A stretch of DNA of 12,468 nt from assembly GCA_023249955.1 (NCBI GenBank), contig JAHFBR010000017.1, positions 1 through 12,468 on the forward strand. The letters run 5' to 3'. Position numbers and translations under genes: made by a program. This DNA comes from a bacterium. GTDB taxonomy: Bacteria > Babelota > Babeliae > Babelales > RVW-14. The notes under the pieces are model-generated. The model did no database searches. It saw nothing but the letters and a program-made list of their open reading frames with translations, and was not told where the DNA came from. Below are positions 679 through 9,972 of this stretch, piece by piece (within the stretch, counting starts at the first letter, position 1; each line of letters begins with the position of its first letter).

Positions 679-1997
679 TCGCACTTTTTCTTGGCTCATT
701 TTTGGTGCGGGCACTTTTTTTTGGTTTGTATCAACGTTACGACGATCGCGCTTGGCTTGCTTTTGATTCAGAGCAGTATCACCAGGTTGCGCTTCAGATT
801 GCCCTGGGCAACGGGATCTCTACCGCCGACTGCCAGCCTAATTTTTATCGTCTGCCGGGCTATCCTGCTTTTCTGGCAGCTGGTTATAAACTGTTTAATT
901 TCAGCGTTGAAAAAACGTTGTGGTTGCAACTTGTGCTTGCCAGTTTTATTCCCGTGTTAATTTTTGTCTTAGCCCAAATACTGCTTGGATCGATGCTGCT
1001 TGCAAAAATTGCAGCCGGCATTGCCATGCTGCATCCCGGCTTTATCATGTACGCCGGAACCGTGTCGACCGAGTCGCTGTTCTTGCTCTTTTTCTTATTG
1101 TTTCTGTGCTGCTTTTTTACGGCGCCATCGTATCGCATACTGCTTGTTGCCAGCCTTTTTTTGGGGGTCGCATCGTTGATTCGTGCCGTAGGCCACTACA
1201 TTTTAGTGCTAGCACTGATATACTTTCTATTCATGCGCAGTCAGCGCATAAAAAAAATAGCCGCTGCAGGGGTGCTGAGCGGCGGCTGGCTTGCGGTTGT
1301 GAGCTGGTGGTTGTTGCGCAACTATCTATTGGCTGGGGCAATCTTTTTTCACACGCTTCCCGGGTTGCACTTTTTGCAGTACTCGGCCACGTACGTGGTT
1401 CAGGATCTTGAGCATTGTGATTATTTTGTAGCAAAGAAAAAGATTTTTGCTGAATGGGATAGGCGTGTTGAGCATGCTGAACAGAAGCTCAAGCGACCTG
1501 TTACGGAATATGAACGTTTTGCATGTGCAGAAAAACTGGCCTACGCGTATCTGTTTGGCCATCCAATTGTTGCTTTGAAGCATGCGGTTGTGCAGATTAT
1601 GCGTACGTGTTGTACGCTTTACTCGACCATTTTGTTGTACGTGCCACTTGGAACGGTTTACGGTGACGCATCACTGTGGTTCAAAGCAAAGTTATATTTA
1701 TTGCCCAATGCAATTCATCAGGGCTTGATCCCACTGATTTATTGGGAGCTGATATTGTTTGGAGTGATGGCAATGGGGTGGATGCTTTTGATGTTCAGGG
1801 CAGTACGCGACAAACATGCGCGCATGCTTCTGTTCAAAATCCTGCCATTCATGTTTTTATTGATCGGCATAACGCTTGCTTATGGCTGTGCGCGTTTACG
1901 CTTTGCCGTTGAGCCGTTTATGATTATCGGCGTCGTGTACGGGTTGTTTTATAGGCTGTCGTCGTCATCTGCCTGTTGTATTGCCAATGTTTTTTGA
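654..1997 (+). CDS. GT39/ArnT-like polytopic membrane glycosyltransferase with altered C-terminus
   Basis: A 447-residue polytopic membrane protein with roughly ten hydrophobic segments. The N-terminal helix is followed by an external loop with FDSEQYH (D38, E40), the position of the catalytic acidic residue in GT-C enzymes. RLPGYP at about 66-71 and HPGFIMYAGTVSTESLF further on are typical of the PMT_2/GT39 group. Such enzymes use polyprenyl-phosphate sugars to glycosylate a lipid, glycan or protein. The ATG at 654 is chosen because the product then begins at the same point as the paralog at 8620; a GTG at 630 in the same frame would add eight residues. It is a tandem paralog of the partial gene upstream. 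The C-terminus is odd. After the conserved LRFAVEPFMII segment, the paralogs end in short basic tails, whereas this one ends in a Ser/Cys-rich tail. Its last codons and stop lie inside a 35-bp sequence repeated at 8320-8354. The native 3' end has probably been replaced. Confidence 0.88.
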   Translation: MAQEKLFLVALFLGSFLVRALFFGLYQRYDDRAWLAFDSEQYHQVALQIALGNGISTADCQPNFYRLPGYPAFLAAGYKLFNFSVEKTLWLQLVLASFIPVLIFVLAQILLGSMLLAKIAAGIAMLHPGFIMYAGTVSTESLFLLFFLLFLCCFFTAPSYRILLVASLFLGVASLIRAVGHYILVLALIYFLFMRSQRIKKIAAAGVLSGGWLAVVSWWLLRNYLLAGAIFFHTLPGLHFLQYSATYVVQDLEHCDYFVAKKKIFAEWDRRVEHAEQKLKRPVTEYERFACAEKLAYAYLFGHPIVALKHAVVQIMRTCCTLYSTILLYVPLGTVYGDASLWFKAKLYLLPNAIHQGLIPLIYWELILFGVMAMGWMLLMFRAVRDKHARMLLFKILPFMFLLIGITLAYGCARLRFAVEPFMIIGVVYGLFYRLSSSSACCIANVF

Positions 1998-2147
1998 ACC
2001 GAAAATGTTCCGGTTTGCTTTCGGATCAGTGCATTTCGTGCCATTAACAACTGCTGTGATAGCTTCTGCAATGCCGCGACCTGTAGGAACGACTGCCAGG
2101 AGAATCTCTAGCACAAGTATTTGTTGATTAGCATCATTGCTTTGCAT
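1965..2147 (-). pseudogene. Out-of-frame 3' tail of the PPDK-like gene (fourth helical repeat)
   Basis: Read on the minus strand from 2147, this stretch starts MQSNDANQQIL and continues with EILLAVVPTGRGIAEAITAV. This is clearly homologous to MQSNDANQHIL and the repeats inside the preceding gene (2108-6025), but it lies in another frame. The preceding gene reads out of frame from 2148 and stops at 2108. Deleting one 8-bp copy at 2148-2163 joins the two frames and gives AFAGMQSNDANQ, which aligns without gaps to ATACMQSNDANQ in an earlier repeat. It is therefore best read as the detached C-terminus (about 60 residues) of that gene, not as a separate protein. Its last 15 or so codons run through the 35-bp repeat at 1980-2014, so the original end is probably already lost. 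Confidence 0.8.
1980..2014 (+). repeat. 35-bp direct repeat, copy A
   Basis: The 35 bases beginning ATTGCCAATGTTTTTTGAAC and ending GTTCCGGT are identical to 8320-8354 in the same orientation; identity stops sharply on the right and fades on the left. Copy B encodes TGTFSVQKTLA on the minus strand, the end of a signal peptide. Copy A in the same frame reads TGTFSVQKTLAIQQADDDD and soon hits a stop, with no hydrophobic core upstream. It is therefore a remnant without function of its own. It covers the last codons and stop of the glycosyltransferase at 654-1997. Confidence 0.9.
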
Positions 2148-2456
2148 GCCAGCAACCCAGCAAAAGCTACCGCGATAACTTGGTTAATACCGCTGCCTTT
2201 ATCAACGAGTGCTATGATGAGCTCTAGTGCATTCCATTGTACGCGCCACCTCATGCTTTTCATGCCGACAATAGTTGCTTCGATAGCTTGGTTAATACCG
2301 TGGCCTTTATAAACGAGTGCATTGAGAATCTGTAGCGCAAGTATGTGTTGATTAGCATCATTGCTTTGCATGCAGGCAGTAGCTGTTGTCATAGCTTGGT
2401 CAATACCGTGGCCTTTGGTAACAAGCCAATTCAAAATGGCTACAATAGTGAGATTT
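2033..2456 (-). repeat. Four 36-residue helical (HEAT-like) repeats, 108-bp period
   Basis: The minus strand encodes units with the pattern (I/L)LxxLVxKGxGIxQAI followed by a helix and a linker (MQSNDANQ in some units). The plus-strand landmark GCTTGGTNAATACCG recurs at 2394, 2286 and 2178, exactly 108 bp apart. A fourth, diverged landmark lies at 2062, which is 116 bp away, i.e. 108 plus 8. A DNA segment of about 35-40 bp around GATTAGCATCATTGCTTTGC is almost identical at about 2113-2150 and 2337-2374, 224 bp apart (2x108+8). The spacing implies recent internal duplication and locates an 8-bp insertion between units three and four. The two-helix pattern resembles HEAT/armadillo-type protein-interaction repeats; the exact family is uncertain. 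Confidence 0.8.
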
Positions 2457-5400
2457 ACCGGATGTTCAGATATGCCATCAATAATGTCTGTAATTTTCAC
2501 GTGATCGTTATCGGTGCAAAAGTCTAAAAAATTCATTATCGTGGTTCGGTAATTGGGGCTATATGTAAGCGCAAGAGCTTGGGTCAAAAAATGCTTGAGC
2601 ATTGCGACGAATCGGATGTCGTTGATTGTTATAGCAAATGACAATTCTAAACCCTTAAGCGTTATGTTACTAATTGGCAGATCGAAGATAAGAGCAACTG
2701 TTTGAGCAAAAGCACGAATATTTGACCAGCGATTGTTGTTATTGAAGCCATAAGATTTCAAGCCATAAAATTTGAACCCAAGCGCAACAGTGTACTGTTT
2801 CTTGTTGTAGGTTATATCAAGCGCGGCGCTGTGGTTAAGCAATGGAATGTTAAATGAGTAAGTAAAAGATCCTTTTGTAAAATGTATACCCGTTAATGAA
2901 TGACCAGCTGCTATCTCAACGAGCGACTTTTGTAAGAGTTCTGGCTTTTCAAATGCAGCGTCTGAACACTGTTTGTTGAGCGCACTGACGGTTATCAGTA
3001 AGCTTTGATGGATGGTAGTAAAAATATCCTCAAGCGTTTTGGGCCTATGGTAATGAAAGTGGGCTACGCTCCCCAGCGCTGCCGCTTGAACACCAAATCC
3101 ATCTGATGGTAGCAGTTGAGATTCTTCTGTTGAGGTTAACCCCTGCAAGCTTGTACGCAGTTCTTTAAGGTAGTGCTTCAGAGGCCAGGATGGATTATAC
3201 TTTAGCGTTCCATCTGGAATTATAGGAGCCCAGTGTTCAAGTAGAGACAAGTATGGTTCAAGCATGCGTTTAAACAAAGTAACCTTTTGTTCGGTTGGGT
3301 ACTGGGTGCTACTCTTAAGTGCTTTAATAGATTGGTCAAACAGTTCAACAAAGTCTTTCATGACTGGGAGTGTGGCAACGAAAGTAAATTGATTGTCATT
3401 GATGTTTTTTAACGTGGCCTCAAAGTCTTGGCTTGTGAAGTAAGTGAGGTAGTTATTGAGTTGGGCAAATGCGGTCTCAAATTTTGTAGGGTGTGCAAAT
3501 TGTTCAAGATCAAAGGAATCAAGAGCCTTTTTTTGCTGAACAAGAGATTCGATGAATTGCTGATTTTTTACGAAAGCCTGGTGCAGTGCTTGATAAGATT
3601 CTTGAGGGTTGGCGTGCCCTTTTTCAGCAGGAGCAAAGATGAAGTGCAACCATGTAGGCATCATGCCGATTTCTTCAATGGTTTGCATCATCACTTTAAA
3701 TTCAGCTTGCCCTGCAGGGTCAAGCGTAGGAACAAGATTATTCACAAAAGAGACCCAGCGTTGTTCAAGTTCTGGTGAAATTGCAGCGGTAGCGCCGTGG
3801 TAGGCAATATCAAAGAGTTGGATATCATGCATGATTTGCTTAGAAAGAGTGTGTTGTTGCATGAATTGCATTTTGTTAGAGAGGGTCTCTTTTTCTGCGG
3901 TGTAAGAGTGCGCATCAACAACGGTTTTTGATGGCTGCTGGAAGAGTAAGGCTTCCACAAAACGGATAGGCAGCAATCGTCTGATGTCACGGGCAGGCAG
4001 GGTGAAGCCTTGTTGGAGCGTGGGAACCAAAGTGTTTACGTGTTCAATTATTTTTTCAAAACGGCTAAGTGCTTGCTGTTCAGGGGCTGTTGGAGGATCC
4101 TTATGGACGATTTCCTGCGCAGCGTGCTGCAGTTCGGCAAGCAGTGTTTCCAGAGCTTGTTGGGCAACAGCAGGTTTAGCAACTTTTAAGTTTTCAATCA
4201 ATGTATCAAGATTGTGTAAGGGTAAGTGTAGCTGCCCTTTAGCGCAAGTGTCCGTTGATGTCATCAGATGGCCGACCGATATTTCTTGTGGCAGCGGATG
4301 GTTGAACCAACCCTGCGTAACAGCAGGCAGCTTGTGATCTCCAAGATTGATAATCACGCCACGCTGAGGATCGATGGCGAGGTGCAATGACTGTTGTTGT
4401 GCCCAATCATGAACGATATTTTTGTTATCAGTACGTATAATAATTTTGCCATCACCACGAAAAACGGCTGCGGCGTGGGATGTTGACTCTGCTTCGTCTT
4501 GTACAACGACAGCAATAATGGCAGAACGTTGATTTTTATTTTTCAAATAAATGTTAAGGGCATCATCGAGTTTTTGGGCTACGATAATGTGGGTAGGGTC
4601 TATAATTTCGCGTACGGCGCCGCCAGCAACGCTGACGCTGGAGCCGTATATGATATCTTCTGATTTGAGTGCGTCCAGGTTAGCGATATAACTAGGTTGT
4701 GACAAGTTTTTTGCGCCAACGATAGGTCGAGCTTGCACAATGTAAATTGTTTTGGTGTCTGGTTGATATGCCAGCTCCAAATCCATAGGTTTGCCGTAAT
4801 AATCATGAACGGCTTGGACAACGGTATTGATAGCGGTGACTGCATTAGGTGAAAGAACTGGTGAGGTTCTTGCATGGTTTGAGTTATTCATTGGGAGTAA
4901 GCCAAGTTTGCCATCAGTGTCAATAGGTACCAAGCGTTTGTGTTTATCTTTGATGACAGCGTAAATATTGTTGTCTCCATCAACGTAGAATGTGTCAACG
5001 GGTACAGAACTTTCCACAACGCCTTCTGGATGGCCGTAACCGCATTGCAAGGCAGCAACATGTTCAGTGTCGCCTTCAGCTTCTTGCGAGTATGCTACGC
5101 AACCAACCGGAATACGTGTGGCATCGATTGCACCACCCGTTTGTTCACCAATCATGCGTTGTAAAAGAGCCGGTGTTAAAGGCATGTTAAATAATGTTGG
5201 ATCCCCAGCGCTCAAACGCTGGGAGATGGATTTAGTACGGAAATAAGAAGCAACAACGATACCAACAGCTCTCAAGACGTCAGCGTTCGTTGGTATAACG
5301 TTAGAAACACTGGTGTTACCGCCAGCGTTTGCAAGGTCCTCGGTGTCCTCTTTACCGGTACTGCGGGCCATCAGGCGCCAATCATTATCTTTTGCTGTAT

Positions 5401-6025
5401 TGATCAATGTTTGAGCTTCGTGATTGCCGAGCATGTTATCTGCTTGGCTAAACATTGAAGCAAGTGTTGAGTAGGCCCAAGAAACTGCTCGTTGGGCAAA
5501 CCAAGCTGGCTTGGTTATGACCTCAGGACAGATTTCAAGCTCTTGCGCCTTACGATTAAACGTTTGTTGAATGTCATTAGCAAGTTCTTCAAGATCGGCA
5601 AAAAACGGCGCTGGAAGTTTTTTATCTTCCAAAGCCTCTCCGATCTCTGGTTCGCCGATGTATCTTTCGAGAATTTGTTCCCAGCGTGTGGCGATATCAA
5701 TGCGATTTAGCTTCAAAAAGGTTTGTACTTGGCTACTGGTCAGACCTGCAAATTCTGGAACGGTGACGGTGTAACCACCAAGTGAATTTTTGAGCGCTGG
5801 AGAGCTAAAAATTTTATTCAGTTCCACGAGGTTGGATGTTTTGTATCCAAAGCCTACGCTTTCAGCGTTGTTCTTAAGCAGCAATGGATCAAAGTGCAAC
5901 GTAGGTGGTGTAGCAACAATAGGATTTTTTGTTGTATTGTGTTGACGCACCTGCATCATGGGTTGAGCATAAGTTATGCTGAGCGCAATGCTGAGCACCC
6001 ATAAACAGTAATTTTTGAACTTCAT
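2108..6025 (-). CDS. Exported PEP-synthase/PPDK-like protein with C-terminal helical repeats, frameshifted 3' end
   Basis: About 1305 residues. The signal peptide is MKFKNYCLWVLSIALSITYA followed by QP. This ATG (6025) is preferred over one at 6040 because it gives a normal signal peptide and has GGGG nine bases upstream. Near residues 217-243, RLMARSTGKEDTED and NAGGNTSVSNV match the ATP-binding motif of pyruvate-phosphate dikinase and PEP synthase (RSSxxxED and AGxxxT). QARPIVG at about 431 is the typical end of that ATP-grasp-like domain. TSHAAAVF at about 515-522 matches the phosphohistidine swivelling domain, with the histidine kept. The C-terminal PEP/pyruvate-binding barrel is not recognisable. 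Instead there are about 600 residues of mostly helical sequence, a beta-rich stretch near 1055-1120, then 36-residue helical repeats. A complete enzyme would normally be cytosolic; an exported one without the barrel is odd. It is the last gene of the three-gene unit, 24 nt after the J-domain gene. The 3' end is shifted by an 8-bp duplication at 2148-2163, so the final residues after AFAG are out of frame. Confidence 0.85.
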   Translation of the reverse strand: MKFKNYCLWVLSIALSITYAQPMMQVRQHNTTKNPIVATPPTLHFDPLLLKNNAESVGFGYKTSNLVELNKIFSSPALKNSLGGYTVTVPEFAGLTSSQVQTFLKLNRIDIATRWEQILERYIGEPEIGEALEDKKLPAPFFADLEELANDIQQTFNRKAQELEICPEVITKPAWFAQRAVSWAYSTLASMFSQADNMLGNHEAQTLINTAKDNDWRLMARSTGKEDTEDLANAGGNTSVSNVIPTNADVLRAVGIVVASYFRTKSISQRLSAGDPTLFNMPLTPALLQRMIGEQTGGAIDATRIPVGCVAYSQEAEGDTEHVAALQCGYGHPEGVVESSVPVDTFYVDGDNNIYAVIKDKHKRLVPIDTDGKLGLLPMNNSNHARTSPVLSPNAVTAINTVVQAVHDYYGKPMDLELAYQPDTKTIYIVQARPIVGAKNLSQPSYIANLDALKSEDIIYGSSVSVAGGAVREIIDPTHIIVAQKLDDALNIYLKNKNQRSAIIAVVVQDEAESTSHAAAVFRGDGKIIIRTDNKNIVHDWAQQQSLHLAIDPQRGVIINLGDHKLPAVTQGWFNHPLPQEISVGHLMTSTDTCAKGQLHLPLHNLDTLIENLKVAKPAVAQQALETLLAELQHAAQEIVHKDPPTAPEQQALSRFEKIIEHVNTLVPTLQQGFTLPARDIRRLLPIRFVEALLFQQPSKTVVDAHSYTAEKETLSNKMQFMQQHTLSKQIMHDIQLFDIAYHGATAAISPELEQRWVSFVNNLVPTLDPAGQAEFKVMMQTIEEIGMMPTWLHFIFAPAEKGHANPQESYQALHQAFVKNQQFIESLVQQKKALDSFDLEQFAHPTKFETAFAQLNNYLTYFTSQDFEATLKNINDNQFTFVATLPVMKDFVELFDQSIKALKSSTQYPTEQKVTLFKRMLEPYLSLLEHWAPIIPDGTLKYNPSWPLKHYLKELRTSLQGLTSTEESQLLPSDGFGVQAAALGSVAHFHYHRPKTLEDIFTTIHQSLLITVSALNKQCSDAAFEKPELLQKSLVEIAAGHSLTGIHFTKGSFTYSFNIPLLNHSAALDITYNKKQYTVALGFKFYGLKSYGFNNNNRWSNIRAFAQTVALIFDLPISNITLKGLELSFAITINDIRFVAMLKHFLTQALALTYSPNYRTTIMNFLDFCTDNDHVKITDIIDGISEHPVNLTIVAILNWLVTKGHGIDQAMTTATACMQSNDANQHILALQILNALVYKGHGINQAIEATIVGMKSMRWRVQWNALELIIALVDKGSGINQVIAVAFAGLLACKAMMLINKYLC
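2148..2163 (-). repeat. 8-bp tandem duplication causing a frameshift
   Basis: The plus strand reads GCCAGCAA then CCCAGCAA, two 8-bp units sharing the 7-mer CCAGCAA. Removing one unit restores the 108-bp repeat spacing and joins the frame of the PPDK-like gene to its tail at 1965-2147. Eight bases is not a multiple of three, so this duplication explains the premature stop at 2108. Confidence 0.85.
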
Positions 6026-6049
6026 AAACATAAACCCCATAAAATTATT

Positions 6050-7288
6050 CTAAGTTTTATTAATCTTCGATCTGAGGAGTTGATACGCTCCATTAATTTT
6101 TTGCATGGTATCGCCGCAGTCGGTGCATTTGTCTGGGTGGTACTGGCGAGCGAAAGCCCTGAAAGTCTGTTTGACCAGATCAATTGTTGCCGTCGTTGGA
6201 AGGCCAAGCGTAGCAAAGGCCTGTGCAATTTCAGCCTGATTGCCACCACGTGCAGGCACTAATTGGTTGCGTGTTGGTTGATTGATGCGTTGTGCAAAAT
6301 TTATGTAATCTGCCGAAAGCAGTAAAAAAGCGAACAAGCCTCTCAAGAATGCCATTTTTTTTGTAACTTGAGGCTCTTCCTCTTCCGGTTCAAGTTGAAA
6401 AAGTTTATCTTGTAGAGCTCCAGGAAAGCCTGTGATTCTGATTTGCCCATTGCGCAGCTTCTGCAAAGTGATAGGTGTGTAAGGTTCGCCTAAAATATCT
6501 TGATCATCAGCTTCTCGACGCATGTGTAAAAAATGTGCATCAAAATACTTATCAATAACGGTGCTGATGCCATCGATAATGGTGTCGATATTTGAATCGA
6601 CATCAATCTCGTATTTTTGATCCTGAGGTATGATTGCTATTTGTTTTCTCTGAAAGAGGGCTGATGTATGTACTTTGCCAGCTGATTTTAGTTTCAATTT
6701 TTCTAACTGTGTGCTCAGAAGGCCGTTAGTATCCCAGATGATTTTTTGAGAAGTTATTGTTGTTTTTGTTACTTGGAAAATTGCTTTAATGCGCTTGCGG
6801 ATGTGCCCAAGTACAGTACGGCAAGCTTCCAGGTCCTCTGATGCTCCGTACCATTCGTCCTGTATATCCAGGCCATACTCTTGAAAAAAGGCTTCTAAAT
6901 CGCCTTGCTCAACAATGCACATGCCGCCTTGAATGAGCGTTGCATCGAGTGGTTGTGCAATGTCTGGCTCGTCTAATTTTCCCAATACGCGATCGTTGAG
7001 AGTATCTATGGGCGTATATATGGGCTCATAGTAGATATCGTCTGATTTTTTGACGACCTGCGTTGCATAGTCTTGTAGTCCAGCGCAGAATCTTGTCCAG
7101 GGGCCGGAATCAGCGATGCTTGTAAAAAATCTTTCAAATGCGTGCTCTGCCTTATCTTTACCCGCAACCAACAAAGAGATAACCCTTTGTGTGGTGCCTT
7201 GGGGGGGCGGCAATTCCATGCCAAGTAGGCTGCGTGAAAGCCCATACAACGTAGATAAGAGCACGAAAATCGCTATTTTTACGTTCAT
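6050..7288 (-). CDS. Exported protein with C-terminal J-domain
   Basis: A 412-residue protein. The start at 7288 gives a signal peptide (MNVKIAIFVLLSTLYGLSRS and on to LLGMELPPPQ). Upstream in-frame codons would overlap the previous gene and read its acidic tail out of frame as a His/Thr-rich stretch, so they are rejected. The ribosome site is weak (GAGCGG close to the ATG), which fits translational coupling to the gene ending 16 nt upstream. Residues 30-320 resemble nothing I recognise; they are charged and mainly helical. A hydrophobic stretch near 310-330 could be a membrane anchor. The last 60 or so residues form a J-domain: LVKQTFRAFARQYHPDK with HPDK at about 384-387, a CTDC loop and INGAYQLL. 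J-domains stimulate Hsp70 ATPases. With no Gly/Phe-rich or zinc region, it is a type III-like co-chaperone. Because it carries a signal peptide, the partner is either outside the cytoplasm or in a host; which is not known. Confidence 0.85.
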   Translation of the reverse strand: MNVKIAIFVLLSTLYGLSRSLLGMELPPPQGTTQRVISLLVAGKDKAEHAFERFFTSIADSGPWTRFCAGLQDYATQVVKKSDDIYYEPIYTPIDTLNDRVLGKLDEPDIAQPLDATLIQGGMCIVEQGDLEAFFQEYGLDIQDEWYGASEDLEACRTVLGHIRKRIKAIFQVTKTTITSQKIIWDTNGLLSTQLEKLKLKSAGKVHTSALFQRKQIAIIPQDQKYEIDVDSNIDTIIDGISTVIDKYFDAHFLHMRREADDQDILGEPYTPITLQKLRNGQIRITGFPGALQDKLFQLEPEEEEPQVTKKMAFLRGLFAFLLLSADYINFAQRINQPTRNQLVPARGGNQAEIAQAFATLGLPTTATIDLVKQTFRAFARQYHPDKCTDCGDTMQKINGAYQLLRSKINKT

Positions 7289-7304
7289 TTTACCGCTCGG
7301 ATAC

Positions 7305-8405
7305 CTAGGCGTCGTCGTCACGGGATTCTGACATATCGTTGTCATAAGATTCTTCCATGTCATCGTCATCGTAGTGAGATGGTGGTGGAATAGGACCTTG
7401 AGATGGGACGAGGACAAAATGCCTTGGGGCGCCTTGTAAAGGGTGAGAAATTTTGCAAAGTGGACAAATCATCCCTTGTGCATTGAGTACGTAAGCGTCA
7501 AAACACGTTGTGTGAAGTATGCCACCAGGGCTGCCCTGACAGCATATTTGTGCTGGAATATGTGTAATTTTTTTACCAAGATCGCAGGCTGCAATTTGGA
7601 CATTGCACCACGCGCATTTGTGGTCACCAAAGGTGGCTTGAAGCCAGTGACATTCAACAAAGACTTCTTCTTGTGATGGTAATGAGATAAAAAGTTCATG
7701 TTCTGACGACGAAGCAAGCGGTAAGTATCGCGGCGCATCTTGATGCTTGGCTTGTTCTGGTTTGTGGGTGTGCTGTTTCTGATCGCGATGCATGGTGTTT
7801 ATAAACTCTCTTAAAAGTATATCAAAGTTAGTCAGGAGATTGTTGAGAGAGCGCAGGAGGTCGAGTTTTAAGGCTGGCTGAGTACGTGTGGATAGCATAA
7901 CAAGCTTGTGGATGTCTTCAATTATACACCTTATCGGTTGCAAAAATCTTCCAGATTGGTGGAGCGTTTTGTCGAACTTCTGTAGGCTATCGAGACGCTG
8001 CTCAATTGCGTCAAATTTTGTGGTGATTTCTCGGCAGAGGCACTCAGTTGGATCTTGTTCTTCCGGAGTTAGTTGTTTCCCTGCGGGAGTTAGTTCTATC
8101 TCTGCGGGAGTTGGTTCTATCTCTGTGGGAGTTGGTCCTATCTCTGACTGATTGAAAAATTTCTTTGTGATAAAGCTTTTTTGAATGGTGCTCTCGAAGC
8201 TTGATTTGAAGTAGTTGAAATCAATTTTAAGGAGTCTCCATATCTCACCAAAAAACTCGTGCACCCCCAGCATTGCAACCGTTTTTTGAATCGTACCACA
8301 GAACTCGCGCGCCCTCTGCATTGCCAATGTTTTTTGAACCGAAAATGTTCCGGTCAACATGACAGATGCTATCAGGATTATAATAATTTTCTTAGAAAGC
8401 TTCAT
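7305..8405 (-). CDS. Exported protein with RING-like zinc finger and acidic tail
   Basis: A 366-residue protein. The signal peptide is MKLSKKIIIILIASVMLTGT followed by FSVQKTLA. The ATG at 8405 has GGAGG seven bases upstream and a TTGACA/TATCAT promoter about 73-100 bp upstream. After the signal come a 16-residue tandem duplication (about 23-54), four 7-residue Thr-Pro repeats (about 88-115), and a helical, possibly coiled-coil segment (about 120-205). A cysteine-rich domain follows: C264-x2-C267, C288/C289, H298-x2-C301 and C314-P-L-C317. HTTCFDAY followed by CPLC closely resembles the second half of RING or RING-variant fingers, which in eukaryotes recruit ubiquitin-conjugating enzymes. The C3/C4 spacing is not canonical, so a PHD or other treble-clef finger remains possible. 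The last 22 residues are Asp/Glu-rich. It is the first gene of the three-gene minus-strand unit. An exported RING-like protein suggests a host-directed role, but a second secretion step would be needed and none is visible. Confidence 0.82.
   Translation of the reverse strand: MKLSKKIIIILIASVMLTGTFSVQKTLAMQRAREFCGTIQKTVAMLGVHEFFGEIWRLLKIDFNYFKSSFESTIQKSFITKKFFNQSEIGPTPTEIEPTPAEIELTPAGKQLTPEEQDPTECLCREITTKFDAIEQRLDSLQKFDKTLHQSGRFLQPIRCIIEDIHKLVMLSTRTQPALKLDLLRSLNNLLTNFDILLREFINTMHRDQKQHTHKPEQAKHQDAPRYLPLASSSEHELFISLPSQEEVFVECHWLQATFGDHKCAWCNVQIAACDLGKKITHIPAQICCQGSPGGILHTTCFDAYVLNAQGMICPLCKISHPLQGAPRHFVLVPSQGPIPPPSHYDDDDMEESYDNDMSESRDDDA
8065..8148 (-). repeat. Four 21-bp tandem units encoding a Thr-Pro heptad repeat
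   Basis: Plus-strand units start at 8065, 8086, 8107 and 8128, each beginning GGAGTT(A/G)GTT or GGAGTTGGTC and 21 bp long. On the minus strand they encode EIGPTPT, EIEPTPA, EIELTPA and GKQLTPE. The result is a short acidic, proline-containing linker between the helical N-terminal region and the predicted coil. Unit differences are mostly single bases, so the array is fairly young and copy number may vary between strains. Confidence 0.92.
8244..8339 (-). repeat. Two 48-bp tandem units after the signal peptide
   Basis: Positions 8244-8291 and 8292-8339 align without gaps. On the minus strand they encode VQKTLAMQRAREFCGT and IQKTVAMLGVHEFFGE. The first unit includes the signal peptidase region, so the duplication copied the end of the signal peptide into the mature protein. 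The unit's core, TTGCNANNGTTTTTTGAA, is also present in the distant repeat copy at 1980-2014. Confidence 0.88.
8320..8354 (+). repeat. 35-bp direct repeat, copy B
   Basis: Identical over 35 bp to 1980-2014 in the same orientation, 6340 bp apart. Here it lies in frame inside a real signal peptide (minus-strand TGTFSVQKTLA), so this is the copy in its native setting. The two copies bracket nearly all of the three-gene minus-strand unit. Confidence 0.9.
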
Positions 8406-8477: not shown

Positions 8478-8505
8478 ATGATAAAAATGTGGGAAAAGCT
8501 GTCAA
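8478..8505 (-). promoter_or_regulatory. Sigma-70-type promoter of the three-gene minus-strand unit
   Basis: The minus strand has TTGACA (8505-8500), a 16-bp spacer, and TATCAT (8483-8478). The -35 box is a perfect consensus and the -10 box differs at one base. The region downstream is very AT-rich and reaches the GGAGG ribosome site at 8417-8413. The expected 5' leader is about 65 nt. No other convincing promoter is seen between the three genes, which supports a single transcript. Confidence 0.65.
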
Positions 8506-8619: not shown

Positions 8620-9972
8620 ATGGTTCATAAGAAACAGGTTTTAAAGCTTCTCTGCCTTTTTCTAGCCTCTCTCATTATAAGAGTCCTATTTTACAACGCT
8701 TTTTTACGTGATAACCCAGTGCAGCTGGCATTTGATGCGGGGCATTATCACACGGTCGCGGCTAACGTTGCAGCAGGCAAAGGGCTAGTGAACGACGACG
8801 GCACGCCTCATTTTTATCGCCTGCCAGGGTACCCACTGTCTTTGGCCGGGTGTTATAAAATCTTTGGCGTTGATGCATCGCGAGCGTTGTGGGTTCAGCT
8901 GCTGCTGGCAAGCCTGGTCCCCGTGCTTGTTTTTTTACTGGCGTTACAGATGTTTACTTCAAATACAATTGTTGCGATGTTTGCAGCAATGGTTACTGCG
9001 CTTCATCCAGGCTTTTTGATTTTTTCCGGTCTGGTGATGTCCGAAACACTGTTCATGCTTTTTTTTCTTGGATTTTTACTGTTGTTTTTTGGTGTGCTGT
9101 ACAATCAATGTGCGATAAAAAAAGCGCTGGCCGCAGGCATTTTTTTGGGGGTTGCGTCATTGATTCGTCCCATCGAGCCGGTGATTGTGCTTCTGGCGAT
9201 TGCTCTTTTAGTTTGCCTGATGCCGTCGCGCAAGCAGGCGTTGTGTGCCAGTGCTACTCTTTTTACTGGATGGTGTGCGGTGGTTGGCGTTTGGCTACTA
9301 CGCAATTTTTTACTGACCGGATCGCTGTTTTTGCACACGCTTTCCGGCCCACATCTGCTCAATCATGGTGCCGTGCGCGTCGTGATGCGTGCTCAAAAAA
9401 TATCGTATGAGCAGGCCAAGCGCGATGTTGATGTCTGGCTTAAACAGGCTGAGCAGCAGGCACGAATGCTGACGGGAGGGCAGCTGCACGAAATCGATGC
9501 GTCGCGTTGTGCCCAGCGTCTGGCTGTCACTGTTTTTATTGCTCACCCCGTGCAAACATTCAAGCTCTGCTTAGTGAATGCACTTAAAACAGTATTTTCG
9601 TTGTACTCATCCGAGCTTTTGTTCATCGATTCTGGCGGCCAGTTACCGCCGTATCAACCCAATCGTGGCATCAAAGAGATGGTTCTGCGCTTTTTGAATC
9701 CTGATGTGCATAACCGTTGGATCATCTGGATCATTTATGCCGAGATCATGCTCAATATCATGCTGCTGTTCGGCTTTTGTGGTTTTATCATCGACGCGCT
9801 GATTCGGCACAAAGATTTATCTGTTGTAGTGATGGCGGCAAGCTTTTTTTTACTGTTCATCGCACTTTCATCTATTTGTGGCTTTGCGCGTTTACGTTTG
9901 CCAATTGAACCATTTTTCATTATGTTATCACTAATGTTTTGGAGACGCGTGTGCAAGAAGAGGGTAGTATGA
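8620..9972 (+). CDS. GT39/ArnT-like polytopic membrane glycosyltransferase
   Basis: A 450-residue polytopic membrane protein and third paralog of the genes at 1-678 and 654-1997. The ATG is preceded by AAGGGAG with a four-base gap. The N-terminal helix is followed by FDAGHYH (D39), the acidic site expected for GT-C catalysis. RLPGYP at 67-72 is conserved, as are HPGFLIFSGLVMSETLF and SLIRPIEP in the membrane core. FLLTGSLFLHTLSGPH opens the C-terminal soluble part, and FARLRLPIEPFFIM ends it. The soluble part has diverged more than in the two upstream paralogs (for example it lacks the TCC motif), suggesting a different acceptor. Family members move sugars from polyprenyl-phosphate carriers at the outer face of the inner membrane. 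Its stop overlaps the start of the next gene by four bases (ATGA), so it is coupled to the FAD protein. It follows the minus-strand unit in divergent orientation. Confidence 0.88.
   Translation: MVHKKQVLKLLCLFLASLIIRVLFYNAFLRDNPVQLAFDAGHYHTVAANVAAGKGLVNDDGTPHFYRLPGYPLSLAGCYKIFGVDASRALWVQLLLASLVPVLVFLLALQMFTSNTIVAMFAAMVTALHPGFLIFSGLVMSETLFMLFFLGFLLLFFGVLYNQCAIKKALAAGIFLGVASLIRPIEPVIVLLAIALLVCLMPSRKQALCASATLFTGWCAVVGVWLLRNFLLTGSLFLHTLSGPHLLNHGAVRVVMRAQKISYEQAKRDVDVWLKQAEQQARMLTGGQLHEIDASRCAQRLAVTVFIAHPVQTFKLCLVNALKTVFSLYSSELLFIDSGGQLPPYQPNRGIKEMVLRFLNPDVHNRWIIWIIYAEIMLNIMLLFGFCGFIIDALIRHKDLSVVVMAASFFLLFIALSSICGFARLRLPIEPFFIMLSLMFWRRVCKKRVV

Follow-up and report, generated by a model that had tools for sequence, protein, structure and literature searches.

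A member of a distinct, often exported PEP-synthase-like dikinase family encoded in a lineage-specific three-gene directon of a Dependentiae bacterium

Three consecutive minus-strand open reading frames (ORFs; 8405–7305, 7288–6050 and 6040–2108) lie close together on a 12,468-base contig (hereafter the window, i.e., the whole stretch of DNA analysed), and an initial annotation had proposed that their exported RING-like, J-domain and PPDK-like products work jointly as a host-directed system. Do the three proteins belong together, and what could the third one do? Judged from comparisons between genomes, the three genes do not form a conserved system. The block, which belongs to a Dependentiae bacterium, is a lineage-specific directon whose three proteins are each exported on their own, and what stands out in it is a member of a distinct dikinase family that has the usual catalytic residues together with an unfamiliar second half. 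As the RING-like and the J-domain protein each probably act alone, the interest lies in this family and not in the trio. The window corresponds to contig 96 of a draft genome of 1.06 Mb (G000, 86% complete) that belongs with the Dependentiae/Babelota (TM6); in a genome of the same family (G057), one ORF has the same sequence as a protein from candidate division TM6 bacterium GW2011_GWF2_37_49. The three genes are as follows (aa, amino acids):

7305..8405, minus strand: exported RING-like protein, 366 aa, orphan (ORF, searches of the order's genomes and of proteins)
6050..7288, minus strand: exported J-domain protein of 412 aa (counted from ATG), the domain being C-terminal and the rest an orphan (ORF, Pfam, searches)
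2108..6040, minus strand: exported phosphotransferase of a distinct family, similar to phosphoenolpyruvate (PEP) synthase and pyruvate phosphate dikinase (PPDK), 1310 aa (Pfam, profile searches)

The PPDK-like module claimed for the third protein was recovered well above the curated cut-off (PPDK_N, PF01326, E-value 2.1e-24, 86.9 bits vs. 27), and its ATP-grasp part was also backed by structure comparison. The protein can be divided into five parts (nt, nucleotides):

4706..5893, minus strand: ATP-grasp domain, approximately residues 50–445, with K67, R226, E422 and Q436 (Pfam, structure comparison, alignment)
4301..4654, minus strand: swivelling phosphohistidine domain, approximately residues 463–580, with the H522 codon at 4475–4477 (structure comparison, alignment)
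2906..4213, minus strand: mostly helical domain, approximately residues 610–1045, in place of the PEP/pyruvate domain, with D902, K906, F1007, H1011 and Q1012 (model, alignment)
2561..2899, minus strand: alpha/beta module, approximately residues 1048–1160, with N1064 and H1070, also present in an exported phosphatase of another genome (model, profile match)
2108..2437, minus strand: C-terminal tandem repeats, spacing 108–116 nt, HEAT-like in one relative (repeat scan)

The catalytic histidine motif (TSHAA) aligned to 8a8e, H522 was present in all 94 rows with a letter at this position, and K67, R226, E422, Q436 and H522 showed zero substitutions in 88 to 94 non-redundant rows. The PEP/pyruvate barrel (PF02896) was absent by Pfam from the third protein and from the 30 C-terminal segments scanned, being annotated in 0/68 family rows vs. 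51 of the 52 PEP synthase rows listed; its place is taken by a new part of ca. 600 residues with its own strongly conserved D/K/H/H, modelled as helices plus the alpha/beta module. The family keeps five catalytic residues of the PEP synthase ATP-grasp and phosphohistidine domains while the barrel is replaced, with repeats after the replacing part in some members, and the third protein is not a PEP synthase, a PPDK or a rifampin phosphotransferase, though it employs the dikinase half of these enzymes. Loss of the PEP/pyruvate domain, together with repeats suited to protein binding (HEAT_2 was above its cut-off in family member P0028, with weaker HEAT matches in P0033), would also fit a PEP synthase paralogue that has degenerated or become regulatory, has lost phosphotransfer and is kept as a scaffold for these repeats, but a dead enzyme would hardly keep five catalytic positions unsubstituted, and we regard this reading as very improbable. 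At the 3′ end of the gene, the last repeat resumes after the stop codon in another frame (1965–2147, minus strand), a frame change of either the genome itself or its assembly.

A profile search retrieved 68 proteins at E ≤ 2.3e-110, followed by ordinary PEP synthases from 2.2e-34 (best 120 of 667 matches), which by sequence marks off a sharply bounded and distinct family of often exported PEP-synthase-like phosphotransferases. Signal-like N-termini, assigned here and throughout by our own crude hydrophobicity rule, were found in 35 of the 65 family rows starting with Met vs. 1/51 PEP synthases. Several of the signal-less rows look like over-long starts, and others seem to be really without a signal; among the chlamydial rows, P0069 (Chlamydiia, by the rule) and L167 (by eye) have no Sec-like N-terminus, which would suit type III secretion, and L165 is ambiguous. 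The window's genome has two more family genes in tandem on contig 9 (L054), a piece of another on contig 97 (L055) and, on contig 98, a gene resembling a normal PEP synthase. Outside the phylum, relatives were found in Chlamydiales 38-26, a Parachlamydiaceae, an Oligoflexia, two Deltaproteobacteria and a Planctomycetes metagenome-assembled genome (MAG), and database entries among the matches listed were named Myxococcota, Myxococcaceae and Chlamydiia. The Chlamydiales gene sits on a 369-kb contig among what look, by eye only, like respiratory-chain genes. The Planctomycetes contig may be misbinned, because it is short (5.1 kb), is nearly filled by the family gene, and its sequence groups among those of Dependentiae.

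Dikinase mechanisms are known from central metabolism, antibiotic inactivation, pigment ligation and plant starch. In plants, glucan water dikinase and the glucan phosphatases (SEX4, laforin type) combine an ATP/His dikinase and a dual-specificity phosphatase on one acceptor, and a comparable pairing occurs in the genomes of some family members; unlike in the plant enzyme, no Pfam carbohydrate-binding domain was detected in the family members scanned, and the domain order of glucan water dikinase differs from that of the third protein. PEP synthase and PPDK differ from the third protein in retaining the barrel where it has another C-terminal part and repeats, and in that the family is often exported. 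Rifampin phosphotransferase modifies a drug and is not known to have an export signal. In its representative RPH-Lm the domains are ordered ATP–acceptor–His (PMC4844700), whereas here the order is ATP–His–new part, with the His domain in the centre. A different setting also applies to HpeI of hydroxyphenylethanone kinase (9goj), described as part of a two-component catabolic kinase (PMC12167813). The dikinase in PMC10579323 is a metabolic enzyme of Clostridia. No description of such a family in Dependentiae was found in the literature searched, which was mostly without subscription papers, and neither dikinase nor phosphoenolpyruvate synthase appears as a word in the main text of the Babela massiliensis paper (PMC4378268).

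The best explanation for the locus as a whole, in our view a probable one though far from secure, is a non-conserved directon with an exported, ATP-driven dikinase-family enzyme that acts outside the bacterium on a host acceptor. Action in the host is suggested because the protein is exported, requires ATP and keeps its catalytic residues. It would leave the bacterium by means of its signal peptide and work where ATP is available, most likely in the host cell. There, the beta-phosphate of ATP would be transferred to H522 with release of AMP and inorganic phosphate (Pi), as happens in PEP synthase and in rifampin phosphotransferase; the His domain would then swivel to the new part, and the phosphate would pass to a putative acceptor bound near D902/K906/H1011/H1070. 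The overall reaction would be ATP + acceptor + H2O -> AMP + Pi + phospho-acceptor via phospho-H522. Where a dual-specificity phosphatase is fused to the enzyme or encoded near it, as in some lineages, it would probably remove the phosphate again. If true, an exported branch in unrelated lineages, several of which live inside protists, with its catalytic residues intact and an unfamiliar acceptor part, would add a chemistry to the routes by which intracellular bacteria modify their hosts; the family also offers an enzyme that can be tested directly, in a phylum where most exported proteins lack an assigned function.

The main competing explanation places the dikinase-like protein in the bacterial envelope, where it would act on a surface glycan or lipid instead of on the host. 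Phosphorylated glycans are common in envelopes, and the directon lies within a row of genes for PMT-like membrane glycosyltransferases (1–678, 630–1997 and 8620–9972). However, the periplasm is not known to hold usable ATP, the other loci have different flanking genes, and two of the three chlamydial rows (P0069 and L167) are those without a Sec-like N-terminus, all of which makes an envelope role unlikely in our judgement.

The removal step of the favoured host-directed mechanism draws on phosphatases fused or adjacent to the dikinases of relatives. A dual-specificity phosphatase is fused to four of the 68 family members, C-terminally in P0024, P0030 and P0041 and N-terminally in P0040; all four carry HCxxGxGRTG, and the C-terminal and N-terminal fusions fall at different positions in the tree. 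On contig 10 of genome G060, an exported phosphatase of 184 aa is encoded ca. 200 nt from two tandem dikinase genes, in divergent orientation, and 3.8 kb past the dikinase genes, with two other genes in between, lies the gene of a second exported protein, 751 aa long, that has a phosphatase domain:

L181, 4628..6883 (G060 contig 10): exported phosphatase with the C-terminal alpha/beta module of the dikinase family (profile match)

The module in this 751-aa protein (E 3.8e-13) was the sole match outside the family among 3087 frames of the loci compared, and a direct search with this protein also found the module in a dikinase-family frame of G055 (E 6.9e-4, 26% identity). The pairing of dikinase and phosphatase suggests a reversible mark, added and later taken off. 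A bolder version, which we put forward as tentative, is that Dependentiae, some Chlamydiae and others deliver an ATP-driven phosphohistidine dikinase into their eukaryotic hosts, where it would phosphorylate a host macromolecule via a previously unseen acceptor domain, and that dedicated dual-specificity phosphatases with the same targeting module would reverse the mark, together forming a secreted kinase/phosphatase switch that draws on the chemistry of PEP synthase.

Several observations weigh against these proposals. A PTP-SAK domain (HCxxGxxR) as a fusion partner or neighbour of the dikinase occurs in relatives only and not beside the window's gene; the PTP-SAK gene of the window's genome lies on a separate contig (C102). 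Dikinase and phosphatase genes are close together in only one of the nine genomes holding both (G000, G055–G058, G060, G063, G066 and G092); the remaining eight carry them on separate contigs or, in the case of G057, ca. 315 kb apart. The conserved positions of the new part do show substitutions (K906 in 2 rows, F1007 in 3, H1011 in 4, Q1012 in 5, N1064 in 13 and H1070 in 1), and 30/65 family rows have no signal-like N-terminus by the crude rule. A family match (E ≤ 1e-30) was present in 22 of the 101 genomes of the order, several of them with paralogues, so the family is not essential to the lifestyle. Judging by the sequences retrieved, relatives also occur in Myxococcota and in the Planctomycetes MAG, for which an association with protists is not established.

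How far do the three genes belong together? The tight spacing on one strand and the separate signal-like N-termini described initially were borne out, with gaps of 16 nt (first/second) and 9 nt (second/third), no terminator-like site between the genes on the minus strand in the program's site list, and a signal-like N-terminus on 3/3 proteins. An alternative ORF of 455 aa for the J-domain protein, from TTG at 7417, would overlap the preceding gene. GGAGG precedes the ATG at 8405, and the promoter that had been called good has a high score:

8478..8505, minus strand: sigma-70-like promoter candidate TTGACA-16-TATCAT (11/12 consensus match; the whole class at chance level)

Promoter-like sites as a class are no commoner than chance (20 found vs. 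19.5 ± 5.2 expected), and for this reason a single transcript is plausible from the sequence.

Conserved co-occurrence was assessed in 29 other loci with the third-gene family, a subset of all matches in which several contigs end close by. None of the 29 had a J-protein match (phmmer, E < 1e-3) near the dikinase-family gene. A canonical RING gene adjoined it in two loci (G066 and G053), on the opposite strand; these RING genes (L060, 4365–5369 and L076, 6076–6771) have pentapeptide repeats in one case and weak ankyrin matches in the other. Two more loci, from different families (G071 and G058), had a convergent gene for DnaK (Hsp70) next to the dikinase gene:

L065, 2917..4812 and L069, 2795..4696: DnaK (Hsp70) genes beside dikinase-family genes

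We take this adjacency, the sole neighbour bearing on the Hsp70 idea, for housekeeping synteny. The largest cluster of neighbours across the 29 loci covered at most three of them. One could still suppose that a RING-like E3, a J-domain recruiter and a phosphotransferase are delivered together onto one target, as the shared strand, the short gaps without a terminator-like site, the promoter candidate, the three signal-like N-termini and the adjacent RING and DnaK genes would allow. Yet the RING-like and J-domain proteins are orphans, no locus has a J-domain neighbour, both adjacent RING genes are of canonical type and on the opposite strand, and neighbour clusters never exceed three loci, which renders such a system distinctly improbable. 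The homologues are scattered without linkage, the very outcome the initial annotation had named beforehand as refuting, and neither the conserved co-occurrence it had proposed to look for nor the joint function it had suggested was supported.

For the first protein, the motif that gave rise to the RING-like label is the following:

7455..7616, minus strand: C4HC3 zinc-ligand-like motif, residues 264–317 (CxxC ... CC ... HxxC ... CPLC; pattern, no family above cut-off)

Its eight candidate ligands (C264, C267, C288, C289, H298, C301, C314 and C317) resemble C4HC3 fingers in their order and are a candidate for a variant cross-brace of RING-CH or Nse1 type, while a canonical C3HC4 or C3H2C3 ligand pattern was not found in the protein. 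The Pfam scan of the whole protein gave no relevant family, and a 101-aa segment matched zf-RING-like (PF08746) below the cut-off (E 0.013, 16 bits vs. 26.6). A profile built from the order's own canonical RINGs (20 sequences) scored 4.2 bits on the whole protein and 6.3 on the segment, compared with 3.8 for the best of 200 shuffles; a generalised RING/PHD spacing pattern matched 0/20000 shuffles, this pattern having been composed after the sequence was seen. Eight potential ligands in a C4HC3-like order thus stand against Pfam matches that are all sub-cut-off and a RING profile near shuffle level, and on these patterns ‘RING-like’ appears a fair label, ‘RING’ goes beyond the evidence, and the protein can at best count as a candidate for zinc binding and a ubiquitin-directed role. 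Its only match was itself, both among the order's genomes (1/101) and in a search of 5.8 billion proteins (1 protein) that scores only candidates with common short words. RING domains as such were found in 59/101 genomes of the order vs. 0/14 control genomes, with two elsewhere in the window's genome. In the 20 best-scoring loci a pattern search picked out 20 RING ORFs; signal-like N-termini were present in 17/17 of those that start inside the locus and in 1/3 of the others.

The J-domain claimed for the second protein was verified, with its HPD motif kept:

6065..6217, minus strand: J-domain with HPD motif (DnaJ, PF00226, E 4.5e-9, 36.7 bits vs. curated cut-off 27.8)

It sits at the C-terminus, unlike the N-terminal J-domain of DnaJ proper, and the DnaJ-like gene of the window's genome is located on contig 125. 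Across the 101 order genomes the protein matches others through its J-domain only, and in the 5.8-billion-protein search it retrieved only itself. J-domains were detected in 97 of the 101 genomes, with at least two matches in 65 of those 97, and a signal-like N-terminus was found in 7/8 J-domain ORFs classed as non-DnaJ vs. 0/3 DnaJ. By its domain content, the probable role of the protein is to bring an Hsp70 to a client.

Exported RING and J-domain proteins are common as classes in the phylum. The Babela massiliensis paper presents this cultured member as an intracellular parasite of Acanthamoeba and reports, besides a RING and an F-box protein, ubiquitin hydrolases and three DnaJ-domain proteins specific to the lineage; such eukaryote-like proteins, ankyrin ones included, are in many cases exported (PMC4378268). 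In contrast to that RING protein, the window's RING-like motif is of C4HC3 type and a candidate only. Chromulinavorax, another cultured member, is an intracellular parasite of Spumella with signal sequences on 44% of its inferred proteins (PMC6561590). The host-directed character proposed initially is thus supported indirectly and for the classes, in a phylum of protist parasites, but not for a joint three-protein system.

Some further features were noted around the dikinase-family genes. At L068 (1–8046), neighbouring exported ankyrin and dikinase-family proteins share a closely similar signal-peptide leader while the remainder is apparently unrelated, which is possibly a case of leader shuffling, and at L062 (11366–12295) a signal-like protein with sub-cut-off C2H2 zinc-finger-like matches adjoins the family gene. 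In the window, the three PMT-like genes flanking the block are on the plus strand and have pairwise identities of 46%, 35% and 31%, with a PMT_2 match just under the cut-off in one of them; because these related genes flank it, the block seems to have been inserted into their tandem array. The block is also bracketed by a 38-nt direct repeat (97%; 1977–2014 and 8317–8354), whose left copy is the end of the PMT-like ORF 630–1997 and whose right copy is inside the start of the RING-like gene, and which looks like a recombination scar.
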